Positions 3,230-29,984 of a stretch of 64,000 nt of DNA are shown here, piece after piece. Both the position numbers and the translations under genes were made by a program. The first letter of the stretch is position 1; each line of letters begins with the position of its first letter. The stretch lies in assembly GCF_014023125.1 (NCBI RefSeq), contig NZ_CP048914.1:310001-374000 (forward strand), in the 5' to 3' direction. Origin of the DNA: Candidatus Xianfuyuplasma coldseepsis (GTDB taxonomy: Bacteria > Bacillota_I > Bacilli_A > Izemoplasmatales > Izemoplasmataceae). Below the pieces are notes generated by a model. That model saw only the letters and a program-made list of their open reading frames with translations. It did not search any database and was not told the origin of the DNA.

Positions 3230-3262
3230 AAAAAAAACACCTCAAATTTCTGAGGTGTTTTT
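3230..3262. terminator. Bidirectional terminator between the CotH gene and PFOR
   Basis: Nine-base-pair stem AACACCTCA / TGAGGTGTT with T runs on both sides: five T on the plus strand, eight or more on the minus strand. It serves both convergent genes. Confidence 0.9.
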
Positions 3263-3271
3263 ATGTGTTCA

Positions 3272-6200
3272 TTATTCGGCGTTACTGTAATCCATTGCGG
3301 CATAGCGTTTGTACATATCCCAACGACGTTTTGCTTCGCTTAAGTTTCCAGCAAGAAGTTCATCGGCGTGTTCAGGGTTGATGTCTTTTAGTTGTGCATA
3401 GCGTGCTTCGTTGTCTAAGAACTCAGGGTAGAGATCCCAATTGGGTTCTTTACAATCGATTTGGAATGGATTTTTACCTTGTGGTTCTAAGGTTGGATCG
3501 TAACGGAAGGTTGGCCAGTATCCAGATTGGGTAGCCAATTTCGCTTGATTTTGCGAGTTGGTGAGTCCACCTTTGATTTTGTGCGCGATACATGGGCTGT
3601 AGGCGACAATAATCGATGGTCCTGGATAGGCTTCAGCTTCTAAGAATGCTTTGATGACTTGTGGTTGCGATGCACCATGTGATACTTGAGCAACGTAGAC
3701 ATCACCATAGGTCATGGCGATGGCAGCCAAGTCTTTTTTCTTACCGCCTTTACCAGATGCGGTAAATTTGGCGATGGATCCTTTTGGTGCAGATTTACTG
3801 GATTGTCCACCGGTGTTGGAGTAAACTTCGGTATCGAGAACAAGGATGTTGACGTCTTCGCCATTGGCGATAACGTGGTCGAGTCCACCGTATCCGATAT
3901 CGTATGCCCAACCGTCTCCACCAATAATCCAGTTGCTTTGTTTCACGATATAGTTGGCGAGTTCCTTGATTTCTTCCGCATATTCTTTGTTGTTATCTTC
4001 AAGGAGTGGTAATAATTTTTTAGAGATTTCTAAGGTTTTTTCACCGTCGCTGCGGTTTTCCAACCATTCTTCAAAGAGTTCGGCTTCTTCTTTGGATGCT
4101 TTGTCTTTGCTGTTGACAAAGATGTTTTGGAGACGATCACGCAATGTTTCGTTGGCATGGAACATACCAAATCCAAACTCCGCATTGTCTTCAAATAAAC
4201 TGTTTGCCCAAGCTGGTCCACGACCGTTATCTAAGGTTGTGAATGGGGTTGCTGGGAACGATGCACCGTATATGGATGAACATCCGGTTGCATTGGCAAT
4301 TTGCATCCGTTCTCCGAATAATTGGGTAACGAGTTTGATGTATGGTGTTTCCCCACAACCGGCACATGCACCACTGAATTCGAATAATGGTTTGGCAAAC
4401 TGTGAGTTTTTCGCATTGGTTTTTGAAACCAAGTTGTCTTTGTATGTAACTTCATTGAATAGGTATTCGGAGTTTTGAACTTCGCCTTTTTCAATTTCAT
4501 CACCGATTGGTGACATGGCGAGTGCTTTGGTTTTTGCAGGACATACTTCAACACAGACACCGCATCCAGTACAGTCTAATGTCGAGATTTGGATTTTGTA
4601 TTGTAGTCCTTCCAATCCTTTACCACGTGCTTTTACGGTGGTTAATCCGTCAGGTGCAGCTTCCATTTCGTCATCGGTTAATAAGAAAGGACGAATTACC
4701 GCATGTGGACAGGCAAATGCACATTGGTTACATTGAATACAGTTGTCGTCGAGCCACTGTGGTACATAGTCGGCGATTCCGCGTTTTTCGTATGCAGTTG
4801 AACCGTTGTCCATGGATCCGTCTTCGCGTCCTTCGAATGCAGAAACTGGAAGATCGTATCCTTTGATGGCGTTGACTTGGTCGGCAATGTCGCGTACGTA
4901 AACTGGTTTCGTGGTGTCTACTGTTGGAGCGGTTACTTTTAAGTCTTTCCATTCAGGTTTAACGTCGATTTGAACCAATCCGGATTGTCCCATGTCGATC
5001 GCTTTATAGTTATTCTCAACGATGTCTTGACCTTTACGACCATAGGTTTTTTCGGCGTATTTCTTCATCAGTTTTTGTGCGGTTTCGTATGGCATAATTT
5101 GTTCGTTTAGGGAGAAGAATGCGGATTGCATAATCGTATTTGTACGACCTGTTAATCCAGCTTCTTCTGCTAATTTTACCGCGTTGATGATGTATAGTTT
5201 CGCGTCTTTTTCAGCGAGTTGTTTTTTGACTTTATTTGGTAATAATGCTTCGACTTCGTCAGCTGGTGTAACGGTGTTGAGTAAGAAGGTTCCACCATCA
5301 CGTAAGCCACCAACCATATCGTATTGCGTTAGGTAGGAGTCTTTCGAACAAGAGACGAAGTGTGGTTTGTTTACCAAGTAGGTTGAACGGATGGGGTCTT
5401 TACCAAAACGTAAGTGCATCCGGGTAACCCCACCGGATTTTTTACTATCATAAGAAGAGTATGCTTGTCCGTATAGATCGGTGTTTTCTCCGATGATTTT
5501 GATGGTGTTTTTCGATGCACCAACGGTACCGTCGGATCCAAATCCGAAGAATAGTAATTCGGTGGTGCCTTCACTTTGTACGTCGACGTCTACTTCTGGT
5601 AATGAAGTGAAGTTGACATCGTCGTTAATACCGATGGTGAAGCGATCTCTTTTGTCTCCAACCAAGTTGTCAAATACGGCAACAATTTGTCCTGGTGTGG
5701 TATCTTTTGAGGATAGACCGTATCGTCCACCAAGGATGAGAGGAGCGTTTTCTTGTCCGTAGTATACAGCTTTGACGTCTAAGTACAATGGTTCCCCAAC
5801 GCTTCCGCTTTCTTTTGTACGGTCTAATACAGCGATTGCTTTAACGGTTTTCGGCATTGCTTGTAAGAGAAACTCGGCACTGAATGGGCGGTATAAATGT
5901 ACCGTGAGAAGACCAACTTTACGGCCGTTGTTATTTAAGTAATCAACGGTTTCTTCGATGGCTTCGGTGACACTACCCATAGCGACAACAACTTCGGTTG
6001 CTTCGTTGTCTCCGTAGTAGACGAATGGAGCGTACTCACGACCGGTTATTTTGCTGATTTCTGCTAAGTATTTAGCCGCAATGTCCGGTACTTCTGCATA
6101 ATATTTATCTTGAATTTCGCGTGCTTGCATGTACACGTCATCGTTTTGTGCAGAACCACGTGTGACGGGGTTCGCACTGTTCAATGCGTTTTTACGGAAT

Positions 6201-12365: not shown

Positions 12366-14465
12366 CTATTTTCGTTTTAAAATATATGTACTAATTTCAT
12401 CCACATTGATTTTGGTAAGCAAACGACGAGATCGTTTCCGACCGTCAAAAATGAGGGTGTATTTATCGTCTAAGTTAAAGGTTTCTTTTGTCGTGTTGTT
12501 TTTGAAGATGACAATCAGTTTGGTTTCTTCATCTTCTAGCTCGTAGCGTATCGTTCCGGATTCATGGGTATGAATTGTGACATAATCACGTATTTTTGAT
12601 GGTGCGGTTAAGCGGAACAGGTCGTATTTTTTACGGATTCGAAGCAATTCTTTGACAACGTTGATATCGCGCATGTTTTCGTCAATTAAATCCCAGTTGA
12701 TTTGATTGATGGAATCGGAGGATTTGTAGGAGTTTTCCACGCCTTGTTTACTGCGGTAAAATTCTTGTCCGCTGTGGATAAACGGTACTCCTTGACTTAA
12801 GATGACGATACTCGTTGCGAGTCGTTGACGACGTTTGATTTCATCATCTGTGACGTCTTTACCCAAAGCGATAACGGCTTTGTCATAGAAGGTGTTATTG
12901 TCATGGCATTCGACGTAGTTGATCGATTGCGTGGGATAGCGGAATAAGAACTTGTTCATGCAGCTACCCATGATAATATTCTTAATATCATCGAGTTTGG
13001 CACTGGATCCGAGGGCATAACCACGTTGTTTGATATCGAAGGTGGCTCCTTTGATCAGTTCACGGGTTTTGTCGTTGAAATGACCGATGTTGAACAGTAA
13101 GTGCTTGTTGTACATATGTGCGGCAAAATCATCACCGATTACGGTTGGCATCCGCCATCCTTCCCCATAGACGATGATGTCACTGCGGAAGCGATCAAGT
13201 TTTTGACGTAAGGTGTTCATTGTCCGAATATCGAGTAAGCCCATTAAGTCAAATCGGAAGGCATCCATTTTGTATTCTTTGGCCCAAAATAAAATACTAT
13301 CAATGATGAACTTACGAACCATGCGACGTTCACTGGCAACATCGTTGCCACAGCCACTGCTGTCGGTCATCATACCTTGGTTATCAAAGCGATAGCCATA
13401 TCCAGGGATAATTTTTTCAAAGGCAAACAATTTATGATTATACACGTGATTGTAGACAACGTCCATTGATACGCGTAAGCCAAGTCCGTGAATATCGTCG
13501 ATGACTTTGCGTAGTTCATTGATTCGTTTATATGGATCATCGGGATCGGAGGAGAAGGAACCTTCAGGAACATTGTACTGTGCGGGATCGTATCCCCAGT
13601 TGTAGGTGTTCTCTGGGTTACGTTCATCAGTGCTACCAAAATCATATACTGGCATCAACTGAATATGGGTGATACCGAGGTCTAGGACATGATCAATCCC
13701 AGCGGGATATCCTTCTTTGGTTGTGAGACCTTGTTCGGTGAAACTGGCATATTTGCCAGGGTGGGTTGCTTGTAAGGATGGGTGTTTGGTAAAATCACGA
13801 ATATGAGTTTCGTAAATCACCGCATCGGTTGGAATCCCACTGAACTTGGGTCGTTGTTGACGCATTTTATACAGTTTGGATTCATCGATGACATAGCTCC
13901 ATTCACCGTTGGCGTTGGATGACTGTCCATAGGGATCGGTTAATGTATGTTCTTTCCCGTTGACATAGCTGATGTAGCGGTATTTATAGGTTTCGTAATC
14001 GCCTTTTAAACGGAGATACCAGACGCCTTGATTGTCGTATTCCATCGGAACAATCTCATGGGTGCCATCGGGACTAAGCAATTCGAGCTTCATGTACTTG
14101 GCGACCGGTGTCCAAATTTTAAATTTGGTGCGGTCTTTGCGATAACTACTTCCAAGGTCGGACTGTTCATAATAGTAAATGTCGTCGAACAGTTCGGTAC
14201 GGACAATCTTACCGGTGAAGAGTTCACTGGTGTTGTTTAAATCGTCATAGATGTGATACATTTGATTCAGTAAAATATAGCCGTCAAAACGGGTAATGTA
14301 CTTGCGTTCATTGCCAATCATTTCCGAGGAAATAATATCGAGTTCAATTTCTTCGTCGTTGCCGATGACGGTAAACGACTTGACAAAATCATGGCGATAG
14401 CTTGTTGGTACTAAGATGGTAATTTGACTAAAATCGTCTAAGTAAGAGTAATACGTCTTATTCAT
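12366..14465 (-). CDS. pulA: Type I pullulanase (glycogen/pullulan debranching, GH13)
   Basis: A 699-residue intracellular alpha-1,6-glucosidase; there is no signal peptide. After an N-terminal beta domain and a CBM48-like domain (about 105-195) comes the GH13 barrel with the type I signature YNWGYDP (288-294), the nucleophile Asp406 in DAFRFDLMG, the acid/base Glu435 in YGEGW and the transition-state Asp522 in ECHDNN. Its role is probably debranching of glycogen or imported alpha-glucans. The start overlaps the cca stop by a few bases with a GGGAGA site, so translation is coupled. Confidence 0.95.
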   Translation of the reverse strand: MNKTYYSYLDDFSQITILVPTSYRHDFVKSFTVIGNDEEIELDIISSEMIGNERKYITRFDGYILLNQMYHIYDDLNNTSELFTGKIVRTELFDDIYYYEQSDLGSSYRKDRTKFKIWTPVAKYMKLELLSPDGTHEIVPMEYDNQGVWYLRLKGDYETYKYRYISYVNGKEHTLTDPYGQSSNANGEWSYVIDESKLYKMRQQRPKFSGIPTDAVIYETHIRDFTKHPSLQATHPGKYASFTEQGLTTKEGYPAGIDHVLDLGITHIQLMPVYDFGSTDERNPENTYNWGYDPAQYNVPEGSFSSDPDDPYKRINELRKVIDDIHGLGLRVSMDVVYNHVYNHKLFAFEKIIPGYGYRFDNQGMMTDSSGCGNDVASERRMVRKFIIDSILFWAKEYKMDAFRFDLMGLLDIRTMNTLRQKLDRFRSDIIVYGEGWRMPTVIGDDFAAHMYNKHLLFNIGHFNDKTRELIKGATFDIKQRGYALGSSAKLDDIKNIIMGSCMNKFLFRYPTQSINYVECHDNNTFYDKAVIALGKDVTDDEIKRRQRLATSIVILSQGVPFIHSGQEFYRSKQGVENSYKSSDSINQINWDLIDENMRDINVVKELLRIRKKYDLFRLTAPSKIRDYVTIHTHESGTIRYELEDEETKLIVIFKNNTTKETFNLDDKYTLIFDGRKRSRRLLTKINVDEISTYILKRK

Positions 14466-16605: not shown

Positions 16606-17034
16606 CTATCCAGTGATATCATCGGGTAAGTTCGGGTCTTTTGCTTCAACAACAATAATAATGTTGTTGGGTAAGCATGTCAGTGGTGATAACGGTGAGT
16701 TTGTCCATCCCTGTGTTTGACAGATGTGTTTGGGACTTTCCTCGTCGATGACACGAACCCGTTGCTCACTGTATTCAATATAAACCCCATAGGGGTTTGA
16801 TCCGAGTACATGAAAGATGTCGTTCTCTTCGTCAATGTTGATAACTCGGTCTTCATTAAAAATTTTATAATTACCATCTTCAAGTTCGATCTCGACAATT
16901 TTCTCATTATTATAGTAGACTATAGCGACACCGTCCACTAATGCATTGTCATTTGTGACTTGGCGGAAAATGAGGAAGCTTGAGACCGCCACAATGAGGA
17001 TGACAGCGATTAAAATCCAGTCTGATTTATGCAT
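16606..17034 (-). CDS. NusG domain II-containing membrane-anchored protein (EetA-like family)
   Basis: A 142-residue protein with an N-terminal transmembrane anchor (about 6-24) and an extracytoplasmic NusG-domain-II fold (PF07009), ending in the hallmark ICQTQGW...CLPNNIIIVVE with two conserved Cys. This family includes, as I recall, EetA of the flavin-based extracellular electron transfer locus of Listeria, and often accompanies Gx-transporter and ApbE genes. Both occur in this window at 30.0 and 28.7 kb. The role is probably redox or membrane-linked; unproven. Confidence 0.85.
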   Translation of the reverse strand: MHKSDWILIAVILIVAVSSFLIFRQVTNDNALVDGVAIVYYNNEKIVEIELEDGNYKIFNEDRVINIDEENDIFHVLGSNPYGVYIEYSEQRVRVIDEESPKHICQTQGWTNSPLSPLTCLPNNIIIVVEAKDPNLPDDITG

Positions 17035-17322: not shown

Positions 17323-18648
17323 ATGAAAAAATTACTATTGGTTTTTGCAGCATTTGCATTAACGTTTGCACTTAGTGCATGTGGGGAAGAAGGACTTCCA
17401 GAACTTCCAGATGAAGTAACAATGGATAATATTGATGACTTTTTAGGTCGTCCAGATGTACAATATGTAGACGTACGTGATTTCGACGAAAGAATGTTTT
17501 CTGGTTACATCCAAGGTTTCGAAGTTATCCCTTATTTTGATTACTTAAAATATGAAGATATCTTAGTAGACAACGGTGGATGGGTGTACGATGCTGGTGA
17601 AGCAAAAAGCGAAACTGCTTTAGAAGCATTATTCGACGACAGCAAAGCTATCTTTATCATGTGTGGTAGTGGAACTCGCGCTGGGTACATTAAAGATGCA
17701 TTAGAAGCAATCGGATTTGACAATGTATATAACATTGGTGGATACGGAAGCTATGACACAACTAGTGACTTTAACGTAGCTGGCGACAACTCTTATGTCA
17801 ATGTACCACTTGTTAAAGGTGGATGGGATGAAGGTACCTACTTCGGATTCGATCCAGTTGGATTATACATGGCTACTGTTGTTATCAACAGCCAAGGTGG
17901 AATCCAAGCCGTAGCATTTGACGCATTATACGGAGACTCTACCAAACAAATCATAGGTGAAGGTTATGACATGGGTAGATTTAGTGATCCTTATGTAGCA
18001 AACTATTGGTTCACACATGCTGACAACTTAGCAGCTGAAGTTGTAGCTAGTCAAGGTTGGTCAAACATTACTTTAGACCAAATGACATTGACTGAAATCG
18101 AAGCGGAAGACAGTCTTCCACATCACATCATCGAATTTGATGGTTTAGCAGGTGTTACTGTTGGAGCTGAAGGATTTGTCTATGCATGGAACGATGCCAT
18201 CTCTCAAGCAAGCGATAGCGATCTTGGTGTTGTAGACACAGAATTAACAAACGAAGAATGGTTATTATTACACGCTGATTGGAAAGCATATGGATGGACA
18301 TTGAGCCTTGATGGAGATGATCATGTATTTGAATTCTCTGGAACCGATGCAAATCAATTCTGGAACAACAATGCACAATACCCAATCGATCCTGCACTAG
18401 ATGCAACTGCTACAAGTGTTGATGTAACATTAACAGCACCAGAACAAGGATTCATGTTAAAAATTGAAATTACTGGTGGAGCAAACTTAGAAGTACCATT
18501 CACAGGTACTGGTGCAGAACAAGTTGTCAGTATCCCACTTGATGGATTTACTGCAGAACAAATTCCACAATTAAATCTTATCGTATTATTCGCAACTACT
18601 GTTGATGGAACTGGAACGATTACTGTTCATAGTGTTGATGTGAACTAA
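17323..18648 (+). CDS. Lipoprotein: rhodanese domain, FMN-binding-like domain, C-terminal beta domain
   Basis: A 441-residue exported lipoprotein (signal with LSAC, Cys20). Residues about 35-145 form a rhodanese domain with active-site loop MCGSGTRAG (Cys114) and the DVR motif at 50-52. Residues about 160-295 resemble an FMN_bind domain ending in FDGLAGVTVGAEGFVYAWNDA, which aligns with the flavinylation motif DGxSGATxT; Ser is Ala and Ala is Val, but Thr279 remains. A beta-sandwich-like tail (about 310-441) could bind a ligand. It faces the Rnf operon and has a consensus promoter. Probable extracytoplasmic redox or sulfur-carrier protein; function inferred. A second rhodanese lipoprotein lies at 27040. 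Confidence 0.8.
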   Translation: MKKLLLVFAAFALTFALSACGEEGLPELPDEVTMDNIDDFLGRPDVQYVDVRDFDERMFSGYIQGFEVIPYFDYLKYEDILVDNGGWVYDAGEAKSETALEALFDDSKAIFIMCGSGTRAGYIKDALEAIGFDNVYNIGGYGSYDTTSDFNVAGDNSYVNVPLVKGGWDEGTYFGFDPVGLYMATVVINSQGGIQAVAFDALYGDSTKQIIGEGYDMGRFSDPYVANYWFTHADNLAAEVVASQGWSNITLDQMTLTEIEAEDSLPHHIIEFDGLAGVTVGAEGFVYAWNDAISQASDSDLGVVDTELTNEEWLLLHADWKAYGWTLSLDGDDHVFEFSGTDANQFWNNNAQYPIDPALDATATSVDVTLTAPEQGFMLKIEITGGANLEVPFTGTGAEQVVSIPLDGFTAEQIPQLNLIVLFATTVDGTGTITVHSVDVN

Positions 18649-19152: not shown

Positions 19153-19764
19153 TTAAATCACCCCACTAAAGCCACTGAAGATCATCGCCATGATGAAGGC
19201 CGTGATTAAGGCAATGGGAATCCCTTGCCAGTTCTTCTTGAGCGGATAGGCATCCATTTCTTCGCGGATCGCAGAGAATAAGAAGATGACAACGGCATAT
19301 CCTAAACTAATACCAAGGGCATAGATGGTTGCTTCTACGAAGCTTGGAATTTGGGTTCCTACCATCAATAATTTTTGCGATCCAGCACCATTAACTGTAA
19401 CGTCAATCGCAACCCCTAGAACAGCACAGTTGGTTGTGATAAGCGGTAAATATACCCCAAGGGCACTGTAGATGGCGGGACTGAACTTCTTAATCACCAT
19501 TTCGACCAATTGGACAAAGGATGCGATAACTAAAATGAAGACGATGGTCGAGAGGTACTGAATTTCATATTCCACGAGAACATAGAAGTAAATCGCGTAG
19601 GCAATCATCGTGGATAGGGTGATGACGAAGGTAACCGCCATCCCCATCGAAAGGGCACTGCTTTTCTTGGTCGATACACCAAGGAAGGGGCAGAGACCGT
19701 AGAATTGATTTAAGACAACATTATTAACAAAGATGGCCGCAAAGGCAAGAGCAAATAGTTCCAT
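19153..19764 (-). CDS. rnfA: Rnf complex subunit RnfA
   Basis: A 203-residue integral membrane protein with six predicted helices. It has the conserved half-site Cys motifs FYGLCPFLGVS in helix 1 and LITTNCAVLGVA in helix 4, which with RnfE hold an intramembrane [2Fe-2S] cluster. One of the two inverted-topology core subunits. The start overlaps the rnfE stop (TAATG). Confidence 0.95.
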   Translation of the reverse strand: MELFALAFAAIFVNNVVLNQFYGLCPFLGVSTKKSSALSMGMAVTFVITLSTMIAYAIYFYVLVEYEIQYLSTIVFILVIASFVQLVEMVIKKFSPAIYSALGVYLPLITTNCAVLGVAIDVTVNGAGSQKLLMVGTQIPSFVEATIYALGISLGYAVVIFLFSAIREEMDAYPLKKNWQGIPIALITAFIMAMIFSGFSGVI

Positions 19765-20399
19765 TATGCTGCCTCACCTCCTTCAAGGTTGCGGAATTTC
19801 AGTTTGTTGACTTGGCTGACGAGAATACCGAAGACCAAGAAGGCTCCAGCTGGTGCAACCAAGATTGGGATTTGGAAATCAACAGGAATTAATTGAATCG
19901 CCAAGTCACCCCATATGGTAATACTTCCACTACCGAGTAATTCACGGAAGAACGCAATCAACATGATTCCTCCGGTAAATCCAATGGCCATTCCAAGACC
20001 ATCTAAGACACTACGCCATGGACCGTTTTTCGAAGCGAATGCTTCGGCACGACCTAAGATCAAACAGTTAACAACGATTAAACTTAAGAAGGTTCCAAGT
20101 TGTGCGGCAATGTCTTCCATGTAGGCATACATCACCATCTCTAAGATGGTAACGAGCGAAGCGATAACAACAATATAAATTGGAATCCGAACCTCACGTG
20201 GTACGGCTTTACGAATTAAGGAAATGATCAAGTTACTGAAGACGAGAACGAAGATAACCCCAATTCCCATCCCAATCGCTTTTTCGACACTACCGGTTAC
20301 GGCGAGGGTAGGACACATTCCTAAAAACTGAACAAAGGTTGGATTTTGCTTAAAGAATCCAGTAGTGAATACTTCCATATTACTTTTTTGTCGAGCCAT
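19764..20399 (-). CDS. rnfE: Rnf complex subunit RnfE
   Basis: A 211-residue integral membrane protein homologous to RnfA, with FLGMCPTLAVT and LIVVNCLILGRAEAFAS carrying the intramembrane cluster Cys. It also has the N-terminal FKQNPTFVQ typical of RnfE. Overlaps rnfG and rnfA by one base on each side, so coupled translation. Confidence 0.95.
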   Translation of the reverse strand: MARQKSNMEVFTTGFFKQNPTFVQFLGMCPTLAVTGSVEKAIGMGIGVIFVLVFSNLIISLIRKAVPREVRIPIYIVVIASLVTILEMVMYAYMEDIAAQLGTFLSLIVVNCLILGRAEAFASKNGPWRSVLDGLGMAIGFTGGIMLIAFFRELLGSGSITIWGDLAIQLIPVDFQIPILVAPAGAFLVFGILVSQVNKLKFRNLEGGEAA

Positions 20400-22288
20400 T
20401 AGTTTGCACCTCCTACAGATTCGGATGTGTGGTAGTCATAGATGTCGGCGATGGATGCTTTCCAGGCTGTGGTTGTCACGGTTGCGCCGGACAATCCATC
20501 AAAGTCGCCATTGGCTGCATCCAAGAATGCCAAATCAATGAACTGCGTCCAGTTGGCAGCATCCGCAATTTGACCACCATAACCAGGTGTATCATTCTGT
20601 GAGATGACCATGAACTGAACGATGGTATCGCTAAGATCAACCGATAATAGATAGGTAATGTCGTCGGCAAATCCTTCAAAAGTTGCATAATAGACATAAC
20701 CAATAATTGCATCACTACCATCTTTGGCAGCATATAAGTTTAGAATATTGCTGTCGTAAGAATAGGTTGTATAGACCGATTCAAAGGTTATGGCATCGGG
20801 ATAGACCGTTTGCAAATTGGCGATACTAGTGTCTCCCGGTACTTCAAAGAGTGGATATTTATTGATGTGGTAATCGACTAGAATCTCAACCGCATCCCGA
20901 ACTTGAGCGAAGGTTATGGTTGCGCCACCAACTTCATCCAAATCGAGTTCAGCGGTAATCGCATCCCCGATCATTGAAGTATCGTATGCATCATCATAAT
21001 ATCCTTCGACACGATTTTTGGTATCGGTTGTATCAATGAATTGTAGTCCGGTGAAGTTATCATCGGCATCAATCCCAACCATAAACTCAATGTAGGTAAT
21101 CTCACTATAGGATGCACCGATGGTAATCATGTGGTATACCGTACCAAGGTAGGTATTGCCATTGTACGCATCATACACACCTTCGATGAGTGGGTTGGTT
21201 AGTTTACCACCCGTCACATCGACATACTCTGTCGCCGATGCAAATAGTTCATCAAATGCTTTGTCAACGCGTTCGTTATAGGTAAGTTCTTTTTCACCCT
21301 CAAATTCCCAACGGTGGTATAATGCCACGAGTTGGAGACTCGATTCAAAGGCGAGTCCAGTTACACTTGCTCCACCAAAGGTATCGACACTAACACCGGT
21401 CATATCGGTACTTAGGTTGCCATCAAATTGGCTCCATAAGGTTTCATCATACATTTTTTCAGCACCGTATTCAGCGGTATCACCACTATATAAGGTGATG
21501 TATCCAAGCACTTCATTGGTAGTGGTATCATAGGCAATCGCATATTGATTTTCATCGTCTCCGTTGAATCCAACAAAGGATGCTTCGTAGACAACAACAG
21601 CATCACCATCGGTAGTATAAATACTAGTGATTCCATAACTGTCGAATGGATTCGTCGGTGTATATTCTGTGATGGTTCCACCGGCAAGTGCTTCAAGTTT
21701 TTTCATTTTTACTTGTTCTGGTGTCAGTGGTGTGAAGCCATAGGTATCGAGATGGTAGTTATAGACACTTTGCATCGAGGTTTTCCAATACCCGGTGGTA
21801 AAGGTTGCCCCGGCAACGCCATCAAAGTCACCACTTCCAGCTAATTGTATCGACATTCCAGAGAATTGGGCCCACAGGTCTGGGCTCATAAACTCATCTG
21901 CCGTCGATGCACTTTCGGCTTGACTTAACATTTCAAAGCCTCCAATGTTTCCTTCTGCATCGACACTCATCATATATTCCAAGTTACTAGCATAACCGCG
22001 GAAGGTGACAAAGTAGACATAGCCAACGGCATTGCCACTACTGTCGGTAATTTCTAAGATGCTGGTAATTCCAGCGGTAGCTGCATCGGAGGTTGGCTCC
22101 GCAGTTTCCACTTGGTACGTGGGTTCCATCGCGGGGAAAATATCCGATAAGGAATCAATGATTTCTTTCATTTCTTCGGCTTTACGACGAGCAATTTCCT
22201 CACTCGTAAATCCTTCGACAACGAAGACAGCAAGACTGAGTCCAACAACGGTGATAAATAACATAAACACGATTTTTAGAGGTTTCAT
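20399..22288 (-). CDS. rnfG: RnfG-like subunit expanded to four FMN-binding repeats
   Basis: RnfG is normally ~200 residues with one covalently bound FMN; this protein has ~629. After one transmembrane anchor (about 5-26) there are four FMN_bind repeats with a very regular ~147-residue spacing. The flavinylation-type motifs are DGVAGATFT (156-164), DTFGGASVT (302-310), DEVGGATIT (451-459) and DGLSGATVT (597-605). Only the last is canonical, but all keep the Thr or Ser that would carry FMN. ATG 22288 follows GGAGGTG inside the rnfD end. Predicted extracytoplasmic, flavinylated by ApbE (28659). May act as a flavin wire. Confidence 0.92.
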   Translation of the reverse strand: MKPLKIVFMLFITVVGLSLAVFVVEGFTSEEIARRKAEEMKEIIDSLSDIFPAMEPTYQVETAEPTSDAATAGITSILEITDSSGNAVGYVYFVTFRGYASNLEYMMSVDAEGNIGGFEMLSQAESASTADEFMSPDLWAQFSGMSIQLAGSGDFDGVAGATFTTGYWKTSMQSVYNYHLDTYGFTPLTPEQVKMKKLEALAGGTITEYTPTNPFDSYGITSIYTTDGDAVVVYEASFVGFNGDDENQYAIAYDTTTNEVLGYITLYSGDTAEYGAEKMYDETLWSQFDGNLSTDMTGVSVDTFGGASVTGLAFESSLQLVALYHRWEFEGEKELTYNERVDKAFDELFASATEYVDVTGGKLTNPLIEGVYDAYNGNTYLGTVYHMITIGASYSEITYIEFMVGIDADDNFTGLQFIDTTDTKNRVEGYYDDAYDTSMIGDAITAELDLDEVGGATITFAQVRDAVEILVDYHINKYPLFEVPGDTSIANLQTVYPDAITFESVYTTYSYDSNILNLYAAKDGSDAIIGYVYYATFEGFADDITYLLSVDLSDTIVQFMVISQNDTPGYGGQIADAANWTQFIDLAFLDAANGDFDGLSGATVTTTAWKASIADIYDYHTSESVGGAN

Positions 22289-22289
22289 T

Positions 22290-23384
22290 TTACAAGACAC
22301 CTCCTATAAATGCATTGAACGCTTCGATTAATCGGCTTTGGACAATAAATCCTAAGACGGCACCGACAACAAGAACGACAACAGCTAAGCTGATACCGGT
22401 TTTAATCAGTGCTTGTTTATCGGAGCGGACAACGGTCCGATTGATAAACGGTGTAATCATGTTTCCGAGTAAGACGGCAAAGACAACACCTTCAATGGAT
22501 GATCCGACAACACGAACGAGCATCGTCATGATCGCCACGACAACGGCGTAAACCAGTTTTGCTTCACGAGAGGTCGGGCTACTAACACTTTCAGCAACCA
22601 AGAAGACGGCTCCAAACATGGTTAGTCCCGTCATTAAGTTGATGAGCGTAAAGTTTACGGCACCAGCTCCAAAGTTGATGTATCCAACGATGAGACTGAT
22701 GACGCTGACAGTACCAATAAAGGTGACACTGATGCGCCAATCAATGACTTTAGTTACAACGAGATAAATCAGTAATAATGTCAGTAAGATGATACTCGTC
22801 GATCCAATTGCATAGGCTTCGTAGTGACCCAGCATCAAATCAACCATGTTGAAGTTGACGCTTGCACTTTCGACCAATACCGATTTTAGTTGGACGAGTG
22901 GGGTATTGCCTATACTGAGAAAATCACCAAAGGAGATGTTCGCAAATAAGACCCCAACCAAGGCGGGATTAAAGATGTAATATCCGTATCCACCAAAGAC
23001 GAGTTTTCCAATGTATACCCCAACAAATACGGCAAGAATTAAGACGTAGATTGGGGTTGAAGTTGGTAAGAGTAAGGCAATTAATAATCCCGAGTTGATC
23101 GGATCAATCCAACGTTTGTACTCGGAAAAATCGTTGGCACTGCCTTCTCCAAGTGCGTAGAGGAGTTCAATAATGACACTAACGAGTGCTCCTACTACGA
23201 GCATTAAGAAGGTTTTAAATAATTGATCCGGTGCCCAAGAAGTTTCTGCGGCAACAGGAATAAATGCACGAGTGATGATTGCAATAACGCTGACAATCAA
23301 CAGGGATATGTGGAGGTTTAGAGATCGTTTATAGGATCGTTGTTGGTTGTTTTTAATTGGTGGCTTTTTCATTGTAAAGTTCAT
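22290..23384 (-). CDS. rnfD: Rnf complex subunit RnfD
   Basis: A ~364-residue integral membrane protein with about ten helices. Family motifs include YIFNPALVG, the periplasmic-side flavin attachment region and GAVFLVAESVSSPTS. In other RnfD proteins FMN attaches to Thr in SGATPL; here the segment is SIGNTPL, with the Thr (about residue 161-162) kept and the preceding residues changed. Starts at the second of two ATGs after GGAG. Carries electrons and ions across the membrane with RnfA/E/G. Confidence 0.93.
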   Translation of the reverse strand: MNFTMKKPPIKNNQQRSYKRSLNLHISLLIVSVIAIITRAFIPVAAETSWAPDQLFKTFLMLVVGALVSVIIELLYALGEGSANDFSEYKRWIDPINSGLLIALLLPTSTPIYVLILAVFVGVYIGKLVFGGYGYYIFNPALVGVLFANISFGDFLSIGNTPLVQLKSVLVESASVNFNMVDLMLGHYEAYAIGSTSIILLTLLLIYLVVTKVIDWRISVTFIGTVSVISLIVGYINFGAGAVNFTLINLMTGLTMFGAVFLVAESVSSPTSREAKLVYAVVVAIMTMLVRVVGSSIEGVVFAVLLGNMITPFINRTVVRSDKQALIKTGISLAVVVLVVGAVLGFIVQSRLIEAFNAFIGGVL

Positions 23385-23393
23385 CATACGCTC

Positions 23394-24617
23394 CTATCCG
23401 ACACGACGTTTTGCACGTCGCACCCATTCGAGAACATTGATTTTTGATGGACATACATAGCTGCACAGTCCACATTCAACACAACGATCGGTATTGAGTT
23501 CCACAATCCGAGAGTTCACAGCGCGCAGTTCGGCGTCCATGATGTTTTGTGGTAAGATCCCTGCGGGACAGATGTCGTTGCATTCTCCACATTTAATGCA
23601 GACATCTTCGACTTCCTCACGGAAGCCACTCACATTGATGTTATCAATGCTTGCTGTAATCGTGAAACTATCATTGTCAACTTGTTCACCAGATAAGAAA
23701 CTACCGATGTGACAGTTGAGTTCTTCGGTTTCATCGTGGTACCCACCAAGATCGTCAACGATCTCGGTAAAGGGGGTTCCAATTTTCACATCGTACATCG
23801 CGTTGATTAAGAAGGCATCGCCTGTTATCGCCAAGTGACGATTGGTTGCAGGTTTTCCTTCACGAACGGCGTCATAGACCATTTTCGCAGCGACGGTGGA
23901 TGTATATAATATTTGATTGTCAATTAAGTCGATGGACAACACCTCACCAACGAGTTTCTTGGCGATGTGATAATCCCATCCTTTGATTTTTTTGGTGTTA
24001 ATTTCGGCGACATCGATTCCTTTGTCGACAGTGGCTTTCCCTAAGGCCTCAAGCGTATCATAATCCATGTACTTATCAACGATTAGGGTTGCTTTTTCCG
24101 CATGTGCTGCGACTTTTAAGAGATCGATTCCATCGGCAATGGCTTCGGCATTTTGCTTAATGAAGTCATAATCGGTAGAGACGAATGGTTCGTTGATATA
24201 GACAGCATTGATTAAGATGTGTTTGAGGGGTCGTTCAAAGGTGATATCGGTATAGATGCCATCGACGGTTACTTGATGGATTCCGCATGCTTGAAGACGT
24301 TCACGGATGAGTGCCGGAGCTACGTCACCATCTAATTTTGTAAGGTCGATGGATTGATTCAATTTGTCGTTTTCAATCACGATGTGATCGACGATTTTAT
24401 TAAAGCGATCGAGTCGTTGTTCGAAGCCGGTAACTTCACCACTTACCGTGGCGATGACGGGGGTTTGTTGTTTGCCATTGTATTTGTGCGCAACAACTTG
24501 TCCAACGAGGACTTTGTCCCCGATTTCGACTTGAGGAACAGCGATTTTTGAGGTTTTATCAGTTAATGGTAGAAACACCTTGTCTGGAGTTAAATATATT
24601 CGATTTTCCGTAATCAT
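23394..24617 (-). CDS. rnfC: RnfC-like subunit without the NADH/FMN glycine loop
   Basis: A 407-residue peripheral subunit. An N-terminal barrel-sandwich part is followed by a SLBB-like region and two [4Fe-4S] motifs (Cys340/343/346/350 and Cys379/382/385/389, CIKCGECNDIC and CVECGLCSYVC). In usual RnfC the segment AGIVGLGGAGFPTHVK binds FMN/NADH; the aligned stretch here is CGIHQVTVDGIYTDITF (111-127). The following NGAECEP is NAVYINEP. So the Fe-S relay is intact but the NADH site appears lost. ATG 24617 after AGGTGA, 8 bases past the hydrogenase gene: electrons may instead come from that protein. Confidence 0.9.
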   Translation of the reverse strand: MITENRIYLTPDKVFLPLTDKTSKIAVPQVEIGDKVLVGQVVAHKYNGKQQTPVIATVSGEVTGFEQRLDRFNKIVDHIVIENDKLNQSIDLTKLDGDVAPALIRERLQACGIHQVTVDGIYTDITFERPLKHILINAVYINEPFVSTDYDFIKQNAEAIADGIDLLKVAAHAEKATLIVDKYMDYDTLEALGKATVDKGIDVAEINTKKIKGWDYHIAKKLVGEVLSIDLIDNQILYTSTVAAKMVYDAVREGKPATNRHLAITGDAFLINAMYDVKIGTPFTEIVDDLGGYHDETEELNCHIGSFLSGEQVDNDSFTITASIDNINVSGFREEVEDVCIKCGECNDICPAGILPQNIMDAELRAVNSRIVELNTDRCVECGLCSYVCPSKINVLEWVRRAKRRVG

Positions 24618-24625
24618 GATGTCAC

Positions 24626-26500
24626 CTACTCTCTTCTGAATTCTTTCTTGGTGTATGTGGTGTGAATCAATGGTTCGATGTCATCCACATCAATGGTTTC
24701 TAGCATTGGATCATGCATCGGGTTCCATAGAGGCATGTCCGGTGTACATAATGCTTGTTCACGTCGGGCGATAACCTCGTGCGTTGGCAAGTTCTTAATG
24801 ATTGGCATACCGCCACCATTGAGGCATCCACCAGGACACATTTGTAGTTCGACAAGATCGTATGCTTTTTTCTCCATAATGGTCATGAACGCTTTGATGG
24901 CCGCTCCACCTTGAACGCGAGCAATCCATAGTTTTTTGCCTTGGAATGGTACAACGGCTTCTTCGATGATGCCATCGCTTTCTTTGTCTCCATAGACTTT
25001 TTTAAACGATACATCACCAATGAGTTTTTCGTGGGACAGTTCAAAAATTGCTTGCAACGTTCCCATCAATGGTCCCCCTTTGACAAGCGGACGACTAACG
25101 GTGATGTTTTCGTGTGGTTTGATGCCTTGTAAGGCTTTGTAGTTGATGCCTTTTTGTTTTACTAATTTGACAACCTCGCGCGCCGTTAATACAGCATCGA
25201 CATCGGCAACACCATTGGTGGTAAGTTCGTTTCTTGTGATCTCATATTTTTTAGAGCTACACGTTCCAACGGTAACGACTTTGATATTACCTGCTTTGGT
25301 TGCTAACATTTTATGTTTGAGTAATGCTCCTTGAAGAATGTGAGGTGATTTCACAGGAGAGAGATACTGGATTCGTTTGTTGATGGCTTCTTGCAAAGCT
25401 TCTTTGGCAAGAGTAAGTTGTTCTTTGGCCACAGACATTTGTTGATCCAGTGTTGTCGAATCCTCGTCATTTGCTAGTGCTTCAGCCAATGATGTTTCCA
25501 GTTCGTTTAACTTTGTGGTTGCTTTGGTTACGGCATTTTTGAGTGGTTGAATCCCAAATTGATACAGTTCCACAAATCGGTTGCTGGCCGCACAAGTGGT
25601 TGTGAAGACGGGGAAGGTTCCACCGGTTTCACGGCGTTTGATGAACTCACGAGCGGTTGCTATTGCTTGTATATCTTCACCTAAATCCGTGTTTGTTATC
25701 ACATCAAATCCTAGTTTCTCGAGAGCTTCATAGGTTTTCCCAATGGTCTCTTCAAACGGTGTCTCGAGCGGATATCCGAACTCTTCAGCAATGGCGATAC
25801 TGGCTTGTTTGTCGAGTTGAACAACAACTTGATTGTTGTCATCACGAATGAACTGCAAGACTTCGGTCGTGGAGTCGGTTTCAAACAGGGTTCCCGTTGG
25901 ACATGCTTTGACGCATTGGCCACAGAAAACACAGCCAGTTTGATCAAATGATAATCCCACAGTTGGAGAGACAAATGGATTCATTCCATCGTCATCGTGG
26001 AATTTGAGTACATTTGCGGTTACGACATTTTGGCATACGGCAACACAGCGTTTGCACAGTACACATTTGGATTGGTCTTGTGATATTCCTGAACCAGCAA
26101 TAATATCTTTGCTACGTCCTATTCCAGGTCCAAATTCGTCAAAGACCACGTCGTGTTGTTTTAATAAATCGTAAAACTCGCACATCCCGTCTTTCGGGCA
26201 GCGCCAACAATCGAATCGATGGCGTGATGCGAGTAATTGTAATGTTGCTTCACGTGATTGAATCACTTTTTCACTGTCGGTATGTATCACCATACCACTT
26301 TTGATTTCTGTATTACATGCAGAGACCAAATCTTGTTCGCCTTCTACTTCAACAACACAGATACGACAAAAGCCAATTTCGTTGATTTCCTCGATGAAAC
26401 ACAACGTTGGAATGTCGATACCGATGCTTTTCGCAGCTGATAAAATGGTGGATCCATTTTTGACTTTGACAGTGGTTCCATTAATTGTAATCTTTGCCAT
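24626..26500 (-). CDS. [FeFe]-hydrogenase-like protein with altered H-cluster motifs
   Basis: A 624-residue protein with the modular Fe-S relay of HydA: [2Fe-2S] (Cys34/45/48/62), His-ligated [4Fe-4S] (His94, Cys98/101/107), and two [4Fe-4S] (Cys146/149/152 and 156; Cys190/193/196/200). The H-cluster domain follows. All four cluster ligands are present: Cys303, Cys414, Cys555 and Cys559 (ELQMCPGGCLNGGG). But motif L1 is TTTCAAS instead of TSCCPxW, so the proton-relay Cys is Thr302, and L2 is VGTCSSKK instead of MPCxxK. An extra ~50-residue coiled coil (about 321-378) sits between L1 and L2. It may be a slow or sensory-type hydrogenase, or an electron-transfer protein. Second gene of the Rnf operon. 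Confidence 0.9.
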   Translation of the reverse strand: MAKITINGTTVKVKNGSTILSAAKSIGIDIPTLCFIEEINEIGFCRICVVEVEGEQDLVSACNTEIKSGMVIHTDSEKVIQSREATLQLLASRHRFDCWRCPKDGMCEFYDLLKQHDVVFDEFGPGIGRSKDIIAGSGISQDQSKCVLCKRCVAVCQNVVTANVLKFHDDDGMNPFVSPTVGLSFDQTGCVFCGQCVKACPTGTLFETDSTTEVLQFIRDDNNQVVVQLDKQASIAIAEEFGYPLETPFEETIGKTYEALEKLGFDVITNTDLGEDIQAIATAREFIKRRETGGTFPVFTTTCAASNRFVELYQFGIQPLKNAVTKATTKLNELETSLAEALANDEDSTTLDQQMSVAKEQLTLAKEALQEAINKRIQYLSPVKSPHILQGALLKHKMLATKAGNIKVVTVGTCSSKKYEITRNELTTNGVADVDAVLTAREVVKLVKQKGINYKALQGIKPHENITVSRPLVKGGPLMGTLQAIFELSHEKLIGDVSFKKVYGDKESDGIIEEAVVPFQGKKLWIARVQGGAAIKAFMTIMEKKAYDLVELQMCPGGCLNGGGMPIIKNLPTHEVIARREQALCTPDMPLWNPMHDPMLETIDVDDIEPLIHTTYTKKEFRRE

Positions 26501-27039: not shown

Positions 27040-27858
27040 ATGCGACGTTTAATGGCTTTATTTAGCGTATTTCTATTAGTTTTTATACTAACTAGTTGTA
27101 CAGAAGAAATCACAATATTGGATATCACTACCGACTCGGAAATCACAATGGCGAATCTCGACGATTATATGTTTCGTGATGATGTGCAATATGTCGACTT
27201 GCGGAACTTTAACGATCCTTTTATGTCAGGAACGATTGATGGGTTTATCAATATCCCCTTCTTCGACTATTTAGATTTCCGGGCATTTGATCGCAATGGT
27301 GTCTTTGAGTTTGATCCTGACCAGATAGTAAATGTTCGTGAAATCGAACGATTGTTTGATTCGGATAAAGCAATCTTTTTATATGCCGATGGTTGCATCC
27401 GCAGTGGTTATGTAAAAGATGTTTTAGATTACTTGGGATATGAACGTGTGTTTGTTCTGGGTGGCTTTTATGAGTATCAAGGTGAACACCGGATTGTTGG
27501 CACAGGTGAATTCTCTTTTGGGAATACCTTTTATGGTAGTTATGTCGATGAAGAGACGGATTATCAGTATCTTGTCTATGGTTCTATTGATGTTGCGCAC
27601 AACATTAAATCAGTTCGATTTGATATCATTGATGATCGTGGTTTGACTCTTCGAAGTGAGGGATATGCTGCAGAAATAAATTACAATGAACAGTTGACCA
27701 TACTAGAGAACTTCATTCTAAATCAAGGAGGAAACTGGAATCAACACTACGATAATATCCTACATGCTGAAACCAGTGGATACGATGAAATCGAGGGATA
27801 TGAATTGGGGTTTTCTGAGAATCTACTATCTTTAATTGAAACCGTAATTAGAAAGTGA
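27040..27858 (+). CDS. Rhodanese-like lipoprotein, paralogue of 17323 with decayed active sites
   Basis: A 272-residue lipoprotein (lipobox LTSC, Cys20) collinear with the first 300 residues of the 17323 protein. Where that one has MCGSGTRAGY, this one has YADGCIRSGY: the catalytic Cys is Ala116 and a Cys (119) appears three places later, the Arg kept. The following FMN-like domain ends YDEIEGYELGFSE (248-260), so the flavin-accepting Thr is Glu255. It lacks the C-terminal beta domain. It may be a binding rather than catalytic partner in the same pathway. SD GGAGGTGA before ATG 27040. Confidence 0.75.
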   Translation: MRRLMALFSVFLLVFILTSCTEEITILDITTDSEITMANLDDYMFRDDVQYVDLRNFNDPFMSGTIDGFINIPFFDYLDFRAFDRNGVFEFDPDQIVNVREIERLFDSDKAIFLYADGCIRSGYVKDVLDYLGYERVFVLGGFYEYQGEHRIVGTGEFSFGNTFYGSYVDEETDYQYLVYGSIDVAHNIKSVRFDIIDDRGLTLRSEGYAAEINYNEQLTILENFILNQGGNWNQHYDNILHAETSGYDEIEGYELGFSENLLSLIETVIRK

Positions 27859-27951: not shown

Positions 27952-28605
27952 ATGAAAAAACTAGTATTTTTAATCGCGGTATTTGCTACTGTACTTTCAC
28001 TTTCAGCGTGTGAAGAAGTCTGTGTTGGAGCAGAGTGTATCACCGGTGAAGTTGAAACTACAGGGGAAGCAGACAATACATTACCGTTTACCCACATTGA
28101 TGGTCATGGAACCGAAACAGCAAAACAAGGATATATTTTATTTGAGATTCCCACGAGAGATTATGTCAAATATCAAGTAGCATACTTATCTTGTACTTGT
28201 CGACCAGCTGTTTATAATTACCTACAAGTCATGTATATTGAAGTCAATATTGGCGATAATGCCATAAATTATATATCGTTTGACACCGATGGTGAAGATG
28301 GCCATTATCATCCTGGAACATGGGGTGATAGTAGTGAGATTCCTAGATATGGTGATGAAAGCAATGGTACCGTAGCCTATGAAACAGTTGTGGAAGATTT
28401 TATTCCGTGGTTAGTAGGAAAAACATCCGCAGATTTTGATGGTATTAGTGTCTTTACGAATGAAACATATCATGATACGGTAACCAACACCACCAACATT
28501 GAAGAACAAGATTTGATTGATGAGTTTGCTGGTAGTAGTGTTTCAACAAATAATATGATTCGCATGGTAAAAGAAGTTCTTGCGTATCACGAAAGTAAAT
28601 ACTAA
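27952..28605 (+). CDS. Lipoprotein with FMN-binding-like C-terminus
   Basis: A 217-residue lipoprotein (signal ending LSAC, Cys20). It contains a Cys pair CTC (81-83) and ends in DEFAGSSVSTNNMIRMVKEV, which has the spacing of an FMN_bind flavinylation motif (DxxSGA[ST]xT) with Ala for Ser and Ser196 at the flavin position, followed by the usual closing helix. No database family is recognised with certainty. It sits between the rhodanese paralogue and the ApbE gene, which supports an extracytoplasmic redox role. It has its own promoter and terminator. Confidence 0.7.
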   Translation: MKKLVFLIAVFATVLSLSACEEVCVGAECITGEVETTGEADNTLPFTHIDGHGTETAKQGYILFEIPTRDYVKYQVAYLSCTCRPAVYNYLQVMYIEVNIGDNAINYISFDTDGEDGHYHPGTWGDSSEIPRYGDESNGTVAYETVVEDFIPWLVGKTSADFDGISVFTNETYHDTVTNTTNIEEQDLIDEFAGSSVSTNNMIRMVKEVLAYHESKY

Positions 28606-28658: not shown

Positions 28659-29984
28659 ATGAAACGAATAGTTACAGTCGTACTGACAATTCTCGTTGTT
28701 GCTACATTGTCGGCGTGTAAAGAGAATGACGCGACAATTGAGTTGATAGGTGAGGATGTGTTGTCGCTTGAAATCGGGGATGAGTATGTCGAAAAGGGAT
28801 TTATTGCCAAAGATGGTTTTACGGATATTAGTGAGTATGTATCGGTTACAGATGACATTGATAATACGGTAGCTGGGGATTATGAAGTAAGATACACATT
28901 GTCCTATGAAAACCAGGAATCATCGGTTACGAGAACCGTTTATTACCGGGAATCCGGATGTACTGTCATTGAAGATACAACGATTACAGAGTGTCGCGTG
29001 TATTGGGCTCAGTACCTCCATACTACGGTGAAGTTAAATTTGTACTACGATGGAGATATCTACAACAATCAAATCGATTCGATTGTGAATAATGTGGAAA
29101 ACATCTTAGCGAAGTACCATCAATTAACGACCAAGTACGATGCATATGATGGTGTGATGAATGTCTATGCGATTAATCAAGATCCAACGGCTGTACATAC
29201 GATTGATTATCGGTTGTTTGATTTGATTCAATTTTCTTTGGATCATCAAGATGAGGTGAATAATCTATTTAATATTGCCCTTGGCCCTGTATTGAAGTTA
29301 TGGCACGATGCTCGAGAAGCGTGTAATGCATTTACCAATCCTGTATGCAATCTGCCAGCAATGGTGGATTTAGAAGCGGCTGATCAATATACCGACCCGA
29401 GTGAGATTACGCTAGATGAAGAGAATCTAACGATTCAAATGGGTGCGAATATGTCGATTGATTTAGGTGGTGTTTCCAAAGGGTACATCAGTGGCAAAAT
29501 AATGGACTATTTGGATAGTTTGGAGTTTTCTGGTTATCTTCTGAATAACGGTACCAGTAATATCTCGATTGGGGGAACTCATCCAGTTCGTGAGAATGAG
29601 AAGTTTTCACTTGCTGTAACCGATCCAACGAATCCCTATTCGTATTATGCGATTGTGTTCTTAGGGGATGGCGATCAGTTGGTGACATCCGGTGATTACC
29701 AACAGAACTTTATCGTTGATGGGGAGTTATATCATCATATTATCAACCCCAATACCTTGATGCCTGAGCGTTATAGCCGCGCCGTGTCAATCGCCACTAG
29801 CGATCCGGCACTTGCCGATTTGTACTCGACAGCAATCTTCACGATGCCGATTGAAGATGGTTTAGCCTTTGTCAATGCCATTGATGGACTAGAGGCAATT
29901 TGGTATACGTTGGACAACACTGTGGTGATGAGCGATAAATTTGAAGCTCAGTATGTCTATGACCTATCTGTCGATAAAGACTAA
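28659..29984 (+). CDS. apbE: ApbE-family FAD:protein FMN transferase, lipoprotein with N-terminal Ig-like domain
   Basis: A 441-residue exported lipoprotein (LSAC, Cys20). Residues about 25-96 form a DUF5011-type Ig-like domain (LEIGDEYVEKGF, AGDYEVRYTLSY). From ~115 on is an ApbE catalytic domain: IDLGGVSKGYISGKI, LLNNGTSNISIGG, LVTSGDYQQNF, HHIINPNTL and ADLYSTAIF. ApbE moves FMN from FAD onto Thr/Ser of FMN_bind domains outside the membrane. Its likely substrates are RnfG, RnfD and the nearby lipoproteins. The Ig domain is an unusual addition. An AAAGGA-type site precedes the ATG. Confidence 0.93.
   Translation: MKRIVTVVLTILVVATLSACKENDATIELIGEDVLSLEIGDEYVEKGFIAKDGFTDISEYVSVTDDIDNTVAGDYEVRYTLSYENQESSVTRTVYYRESGCTVIEDTTITECRVYWAQYLHTTVKLNLYYDGDIYNNQIDSIVNNVENILAKYHQLTTKYDAYDGVMNVYAINQDPTAVHTIDYRLFDLIQFSLDHQDEVNNLFNIALGPVLKLWHDAREACNAFTNPVCNLPAMVDLEAADQYTDPSEITLDEENLTIQMGANMSIDLGGVSKGYISGKIMDYLDSLEFSGYLLNNGTSNISIGGTHPVRENEKFSLAVTDPTNPYSYYAIVFLGDGDQLVTSGDYQQNFIVDGELYHHIINPNTLMPERYSRAVSIATSDPALADLYSTAIFTMPIEDGLAFVNAIDGLEAIWYTLDNTVVMSDKFEAQYVYDLSVDKD

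Follow-up and report, generated by a model that had tools for sequence, protein, structure and literature searches.

A Four-Domain RnfG in a Modified Rnf Gene Block of Candidatus Xianfuyuplasma coldseepsis

Organization and Distribution of the Gene Block

The deep-sea bacterium Candidatus Xianfuyuplasma coldseepsis strain zrk13 is available in pure culture, and its genome of 1,958,905 bases forms a single contig. The window analyzed here, a stretch of 64,000 nucleotides of that contig, contains a block of genes for a modified Rnf complex, hydrogenase-like proteins, and lipoproteins (Table 1). On one strand are encoded ApbE, an FMN_bind-like lipoprotein, and a rhodanese lipoprotein; on the opposite strand follow NuoFc, HydA, and RnfC, D, G, E, A, and B, with rnfG lying inside a tight operon of the order rnfC-D-G-E-A-B. 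Beyond RnfB come a second rhodanese lipoprotein and then a NusG-II protein. A promoter scan between the divergent units of the block gave results at chance level.

Table 1. Genes and domains of the modified Rnf block, in window coordinates.
Feature	Position	Strand	Remarks
NusG domain II protein	16606..17034	-	Conserved neighbor, position kept
Lipoprotein with rhodanese domain, CGSGTR loop, and a part with DGLAGVT	17323..18648	+	Pfam Rhodanese; Cys114 invariant; lipobox LSAC
Short RnfB, 110 aa	18819..19151	-	Membrane helix and one 4Fe-4S domain; Pfam FeS 43.7 bits
RnfA	19153..19764	-	TIGR01943 217.3 bits
RnfE	19764..20399	-	TIGR01948 229.3 bits, above cut-off
RnfG, 629 aa	20399..22288	-	N-terminal membrane helix (~residues 2-27) and four FMN_bind domains
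RnfG FMN_bind domain 4	20402..20845	-	Motif DGLSGAT at 20480-20500; Pfam 42.1 bits
RnfG FMN_bind domain 3	20840..21286	-	Motif DEVGGAT at 20918-20938; Pfam 29.3 bits; D3 clade support 100/99
RnfG FMN_bind domain 2	21287..21727	-	Motif DTFGGAS at 21365-21385, Ser replacing Thr; custom HMM and grouping with domain 2 of relatives
RnfG FMN_bind domain 1	21728..22180	-	Motif DGVAGAT at 21803-21823; Pfam 31.0 bits; D1 clade in domain tree
RnfD	22290..23387	-	Without DxxxGAT flavinylation motif
RnfC	23394..24617	-	4Fe-4S motifs retained (both); FMN/NAD(H) motifs GGxGFP and NAxECEPY missing
HydA-like [FeFe]-hydrogenase subunit, 624 aa	24626..26500	-	All 15 N-terminal Fe-S cysteines present; H-cluster motifs altered (TTTCAAS, GTCSSKKYE)
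NuoFc, 120 aa	26513..26875	-	Solely the C-terminal 4Fe-4S domain of NuoF/HydB, without FMN/NADH domain; Pfam NADH_4Fe-4S only
Rhodanese-like lipoprotein with shifted Cys (DGCIR)	27040..27858	+	Pfam Rhodanese; lipobox LTSC
CTC lipoprotein, motif conserved; C-terminus FMN_bind-like (AGSSVSTNN)	27952..28605	+	Under the cut-off for FMN_bind (16.1 bits)
ApbE, FAD:protein FMN transferase lipoprotein	28659..29984	+	Sole ApbE of the genome

Related loci belong to Candidatus Izimaplasma/Izemoplasma. The block recurs in approximately 17 genomes of the Candidatus Izemoplasma type (the family or its near kin); a second family of the class contributes three more (L083, L062, and L089), in which the block is partly rearranged. 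Several copies end at contig ends, and not every member displays every gene. These relatives were recovered with an RnfC alignment, a search with the single RnfG protein having returned no loci. RnfC profile scores were 590-694 bits for the block, with one member at 389, and at most 269 bits for the others among the matches listed, a gap that sets the block scores apart as a class of their own; the search covered 395 genomes at the level of the class and 392 at that of the phylum. The 1.96-Mb genome has four rnf-type gene sets in total; the three besides that of the window, each with a one-domain RnfG, map to contig 1 at about 118-124 kb, 127-131 kb, and 1403-1406 kb (L064, L065).

Four FMN-Binding Domains in RnfG

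The usual RnfG has one flavin-binding unit. The rnfG reading frame of this block runs on the minus strand from an ATG at 22288 to a stop ending at 20399; an in-frame GTG at 22300 yields a longer mechanical ORF, and the ATG is preferred as the start. The original prediction, made from the sequence of the window, described this protein as an RnfG enlarged to four FMN-binding repeats, with motifs at residues 156, 302, 451, and 597 and a spacing of about 147 residues. These positions were correct (DGVAGAT, DTFGGAS, DEVGGAT, and DGLSGAT, respectively; spacing 146-149 residues), and DxxxGA[ST] is retained in all four domains. Relative to shuffled sequences, the alignment of repeats 1 and 4 lies 29 SD above expectation, those of repeats 1-2 and 1-3 more than 10 SD, and those of repeats 2-4 and 3-4 9 and 5 SD, respectively; the alignment of repeats 2 and 3 is marginal, at 3 SD, a score reached by 5 of 500 shuffles.

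When the domains were cut out and scored singly against Pfam FMN_bind, domains 1, 3, and 4 exceeded the cut-off of 22 bits and domain 2 alone gave no match. The orthologous second domains of relatives scored 30.5 and 32.0 bits, with one at 21.8, and from its grouping with such domains, domain 2 of the window is assigned to FMN_bind by orthology. The custom FMN_bind HMM was trained on the same sequences, such that its scores are not independent, which those of Pfam are. Two features mark a multi-flavinylated protein, namely covalent FMN at more than one site and at least two FMN_bind domains per chain, the latter being also the number on which the four-repeat prediction had been staked; of such domains, the present chain has three above the Pfam cut-off and one by orthology.

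Other evidence likewise places the protein within RnfG. Its closest sequence match in the PDB is the RnfG 7zc6_G (profile E 1.7e-20), and its N-terminal membrane anchor and location in the rnfCDGEAB operon are those of an RnfG; its NCBIfam TIGR01947 score is 88.1, below the cut-off of 102. Structure prediction, which had been recommended as a check, recovered the RnfG fold (8rb8/7zc6, E <1e-6) but, at a pTM of 0.44, did not define the arrangement between the domains. Judged from sequence, several covalent flavins on RnfG and a relay outside the membrane are plausible.

RnfG Domains in Related Genomes

RnfG proteins of the block relatives have three to five domains. The attachment motif, D-x(2-3)-[GN]-x-[ST], is kept in all 58 full-length domains (21% predicted by shuffles), and the strict form, DxxxGA[ST], in 32 of them (0.9% predicted). 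The earlier proposal of an enlarged RnfG with four FMN_bind domains outside the membrane is supported, each domain keeping its attachment Ser/Thr. A further statement, that only repeat 4 has the canonical SGAT, holds in the window; in relatives, the fourth domain mostly reads DxxxGV[ST] and the canonical motif resides in domain 1. Indeed, the last RnfG domain has GV[ST] in nearly all block relatives, the exceptions being the window (SGAT) and L036 (TGAS), and the restriction of the canonical motif to repeat 4 is, from the sequences compared, a peculiarity of the window species.

In a tree of 78 domains, positions 1, 2, 3, and 4 cluster largely by position across the family, which suggests that the multi-domain form is old in the family. 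Domains 1, 2, and 3 of the window fall with the same-position domains of relatives, and domain 4 falls with the domain 4 group at weak support. RnfG proteins with several domains also occur in the Rnf of other families that have no HydA module (L085, L086). Because multi-domain RnfG is also found in Rnf with intact RnfC, the extra domains, as far as these gene sets indicate, need not accompany rewiring of the complex. The RnfG of L085 (3390-7694, minus strand), from another family of the class, reaches 1434 aa, with eight FMN_bind calls by the custom HMM and four by Pfam.

Rewiring of the Rnf Core

The original prediction overlooked a larger point, namely that the rest of the complex is also rewired, including RnfC, RnfD, HydA, the NuoF fragment, and the lipoproteins. 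A ferredoxin:NAD+ Rnf has an FMN/NAD(H) site in RnfC, marked by GGxGFP and NAxECEPY, and this site is lacking in the RnfC of the window. In the block RnfC, GGxGFP has become VDGLYT and NAxECEPY has become NAxYxNEPF; in the alignment with solved RnfC, GMGGATFPTHVKL stands opposite VTVDGLYTDLKF. Both motifs are gone in every block member compared and persist in ordinary Rnf, in relatives as well as in the window genome. Similarly, Complex1_51K scores 26.6 bits on the window RnfC, under the cut-off of 31.2, as against 132.5 on the ordinary RnfC that this genome also encodes.

Block RnfD has no DxxxGAT at the usual site, where most ordinary RnfD proteins of relatives have it. Most block members still have a Thr-Pro-Leu, making flavin attachment at the block RnfD possible; those of the second family have lost it. 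A DVLSGAT in the RnfD of one block member (L058) was rejected as a flavinylation site, as it aligns elsewhere. The RnfB of the window has one cluster domain and no C-terminal ferredoxin-type cluster. An RnfB of approximately 100 aa, without the usual C-terminal ferredoxin part, occurs in both ordinary and modified Rnf of the order (the window, L040-L047); the short RnfB was dropped as part of the rewiring, all ordinary Rnf of the order examined sharing it.

HydA and NuoFc

NuoFc is conserved across the block at 42-90% identity. The N-terminal Fe-S cysteines of HydA are likewise retained, with 15 of 15 in all 23 sequences compared (20 from the block and three canonical), while the H-cluster site in this same set ranges from canonical to ligand-free. 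In place of the group A [FeFe]-hydrogenase motifs TSCxP, PCx2Kx2E, and ExMxCxGGC, the window has TTTCAAS, TCSSKKYE, and ELQMCPGGC. Four cysteines are left as candidate H-cluster ligands, and hydrogenase activity of the window HydA is accordingly possible on its sequence. The same may be said of eight of the 20 block HydA proteins, in which the motifs are intact (L033, L035, L037, L038, L054, and L055) or near-intact (L062 and L083). The ligands have been lost independently in L032, of one family, and in L089, of the other. The L089 protein (3009-4736, minus strand), from a 0.8-Mb genome, has no H-cluster cysteine of any kind and keeps all 15 Fe-S cysteines. The window HydA also contains a coiled-coil-like insert of ~45-60 residues (~25375-25552) that is absent from the aligned relatives. 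Elsewhere the genome encodes three canonical hydrogenases, whose NADH-binding partners are complete (three full NuoF/HydB).

Lipoproteins and ApbE

A lipobox is present in all four lipoproteins, ApbE included. The CGSGTR loop of one rhodanese lipoprotein is conserved, as is the shifted Cys of the other. Profile comparison of the C-terminus of the CTC lipoprotein with the RnfG domains gave a weak match, and a fold search with the model of this protein (pLDDT 69) gave no significant match. The rhodanese lipoprotein, compared by profile with the same domains, gave no significant match (probability 7%). ApbE has an N-terminal bacterial Ig-like domain (28659-29984, plus strand), and the second-family block of L083 encodes a lipoprotein (12528-13400, plus strand) with a tandem pair of rhodanese domains, each having a CxxGTR loop.

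Relation to Known Systems

Multi-flavinylated RnfG, and with it the idea of outward or branched electron transfer, was published in 2021 by Meheust et al. (PMC8238504). In the RNF clusters of that study, too, an rnf operon encodes an RnfG with two or more FMN_bind domains, but the text makes no mention of hydrogenase, rhodanese, or Tenericutes; here, the cofactor motifs of RnfC and RnfD are lost, and HydA, NuoFc, and rhodanese genes are part of the block. The two-subunit Nqr/Rnf-like systems (PMC10979944/PMC11334425) share an RnfD-like subunit without a flavinylation site, and one-way transfer to extracytosolic acceptors was proposed for them. However, they comprise only RnfG-like and RnfD-NAD-domain proteins (PMC11334425), whereas the present block has RnfA, B, C, D, E, and G and no NAD domain on RnfD. 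The proteins CbFMN4 and SaFMN3 (PMC10339131) resemble the present RnfG in having four or three tandem FMN domains with DxxxGAT, and the mass of SaFMN3 demonstrated that ApbE can load all sites of one chain; they differ in that they are not described as Rnf subunits and match RnfG weakly in sequence (8p2b, E 8e-4).

The domain order of the HydA-like Fe-S region is that of group A, NADH-dependent HydA/HydB, and NuoFc corresponds to the C-terminal 4Fe-4S domain of NuoF/HydB. Unlike in these enzymes, the HydB part has no flavin/NADH domain, the H-cluster is altered or lost in many members, and the genes lie within an rnf operon. Finally, ExtH of the Geobacter extHIJKL conduit (PMC6148476), likened here by family, is a rhodanese-family lipoprotein in an extracellular electron-transfer cluster, but the conduit is a Gram-negative cytochrome/porin system with neither Rnf nor flavins. 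No description of an Rnf with a HydA/NuoFc module and a lost NAD(H) site was found in the literature searched, which covered few subscription papers.

Possible Roles of the Modified Complex

The reading that we favor, by a little over even chances, is that the modified Rnf, once a ferredoxin:NAD+ loop, now exports electrons outward via the RnfG flavins to surface lipoproteins. Given the missing NAD(H) site, together with the absence of an H-cluster in L032 and L089, ferredoxin is the sole evident cytosolic partner, and the exit should thus be outside. Cytosolic electrons would reach RnfG domain 1 either from ferredoxin via RnfB and RnfA-E or along a HydA-NuoFc-RnfC Fe-S chain, and would then hop between the covalent FMNs, attached by ApbE, of domains 1 to 4. 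Such hopping would require the flavins to be close together, at interdomain distances that the predicted model does not fix. RnfG would pass the electrons to the surface lipoproteins, i.e., the two rhodanese proteins and the CxC protein with its FMN_bind-like end, and these would reduce an acceptor outside the cell, for which thiosulfate or another form of sulfane sulfur is the most plausible candidate. We infer the flavinylation of RnfG, the outward direction, and the subunit contacts, and the acceptor is a guess. It is suggested by the promotion of zrk13 growth by thiosulfate and by the rhodanese lipoprotein of the Geobacter conduit cluster. Specifically, growth of the strain was improved by 100 mM thiosulfate, but for its transcriptomes with thiosulfate no clear up-regulation of sulfur genes was reported, the response of the block not being stated (PMC8397711). 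It also counts against this reading that a NADH-binding partner encoded elsewhere, among the three full NuoF/HydB, could dock on NuoFc/HydA.

The position of HydA and NuoFc upstream of rnfC in the same operon in block members invites another explanation, in which the Rnf core and HydA form an energy-converting hydrogenase that passes electrons from ferredoxin to protons (H2), or in reverse, while Na+ is pumped, the extra RnfG domains serving as an electron buffer or side path. HydA would be the natural new terminus of a complex whose RnfC has no NAD(H) motifs, and the H-cluster motifs are intact or near-intact in the eight members named above. Against this, the window reads TTTCAAS and GTCSSKK where TSCxP and PCx2Kx2E are expected, L032 and L089 have retained the remainder of the block without H-cluster ligands, the genome already has its three canonical hydrogenases, and the lipoproteins and the three to five flavin domains are left unexplained. 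This explanation is regarded as unlikely. It is quite improbable that the complex is still a ferredoxin:NAD+ Rnf of the ordinary type, its RnfG merely decorated, with domain 1 as the sole working unit and the others serving as a spacer or decorating the surface: the core subunits RnfA, C, D, E, and G are recognizable and multi-domain RnfG does occur without a HydA module in other families, but the RnfC motifs are missing across the block, the same genome encodes a separate Rnf of the ordinary kind whose RnfC is intact, and the attachment motif, which a spacer would not need, is kept in every domain.

The anatomy of the complex indicates no direction, and Rnf is reversible (PMC12174285), so the chain could conceivably run inward, carrying electrons from extracellular donors (reduced sulfur or partner cells) to ferredoxin under the drive of the Na+ gradient. 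Such electron uptake is very improbable, zrk13 being described as a fermenter that must discard electrons (PMC8397711).

Conclusions

The multi-flavin RnfG is of a kind already known, and the wider rewired system is an Rnf variant worth testing. The function of multi-flavin RnfGs has been unclear since the outward-branching proposal of 2021, and in zrk13, a cultured strain in which the NAD+ exit is apparently gone, outward transfer can be tested without a competing route. It is a tentative and rather doubtful suggestion that Candidatus Izemoplasma and its relatives possess a distinct class of Rnf, in which NAD(H) chemistry has been lost, an incorporated [FeFe]-hydrogenase with a decaying catalytic site relays electrons through its Fe-S clusters, and extracellular sulfane sulfur, either thiosulfate or polysulfide, is respired via an RnfG with three to five flavins and rhodanese lipoproteins. 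The block shows a hydrogenase being reduced, stepwise, to an electron relay, and thereby bears on the sharing of parts between respiratory complexes and hydrogenases.
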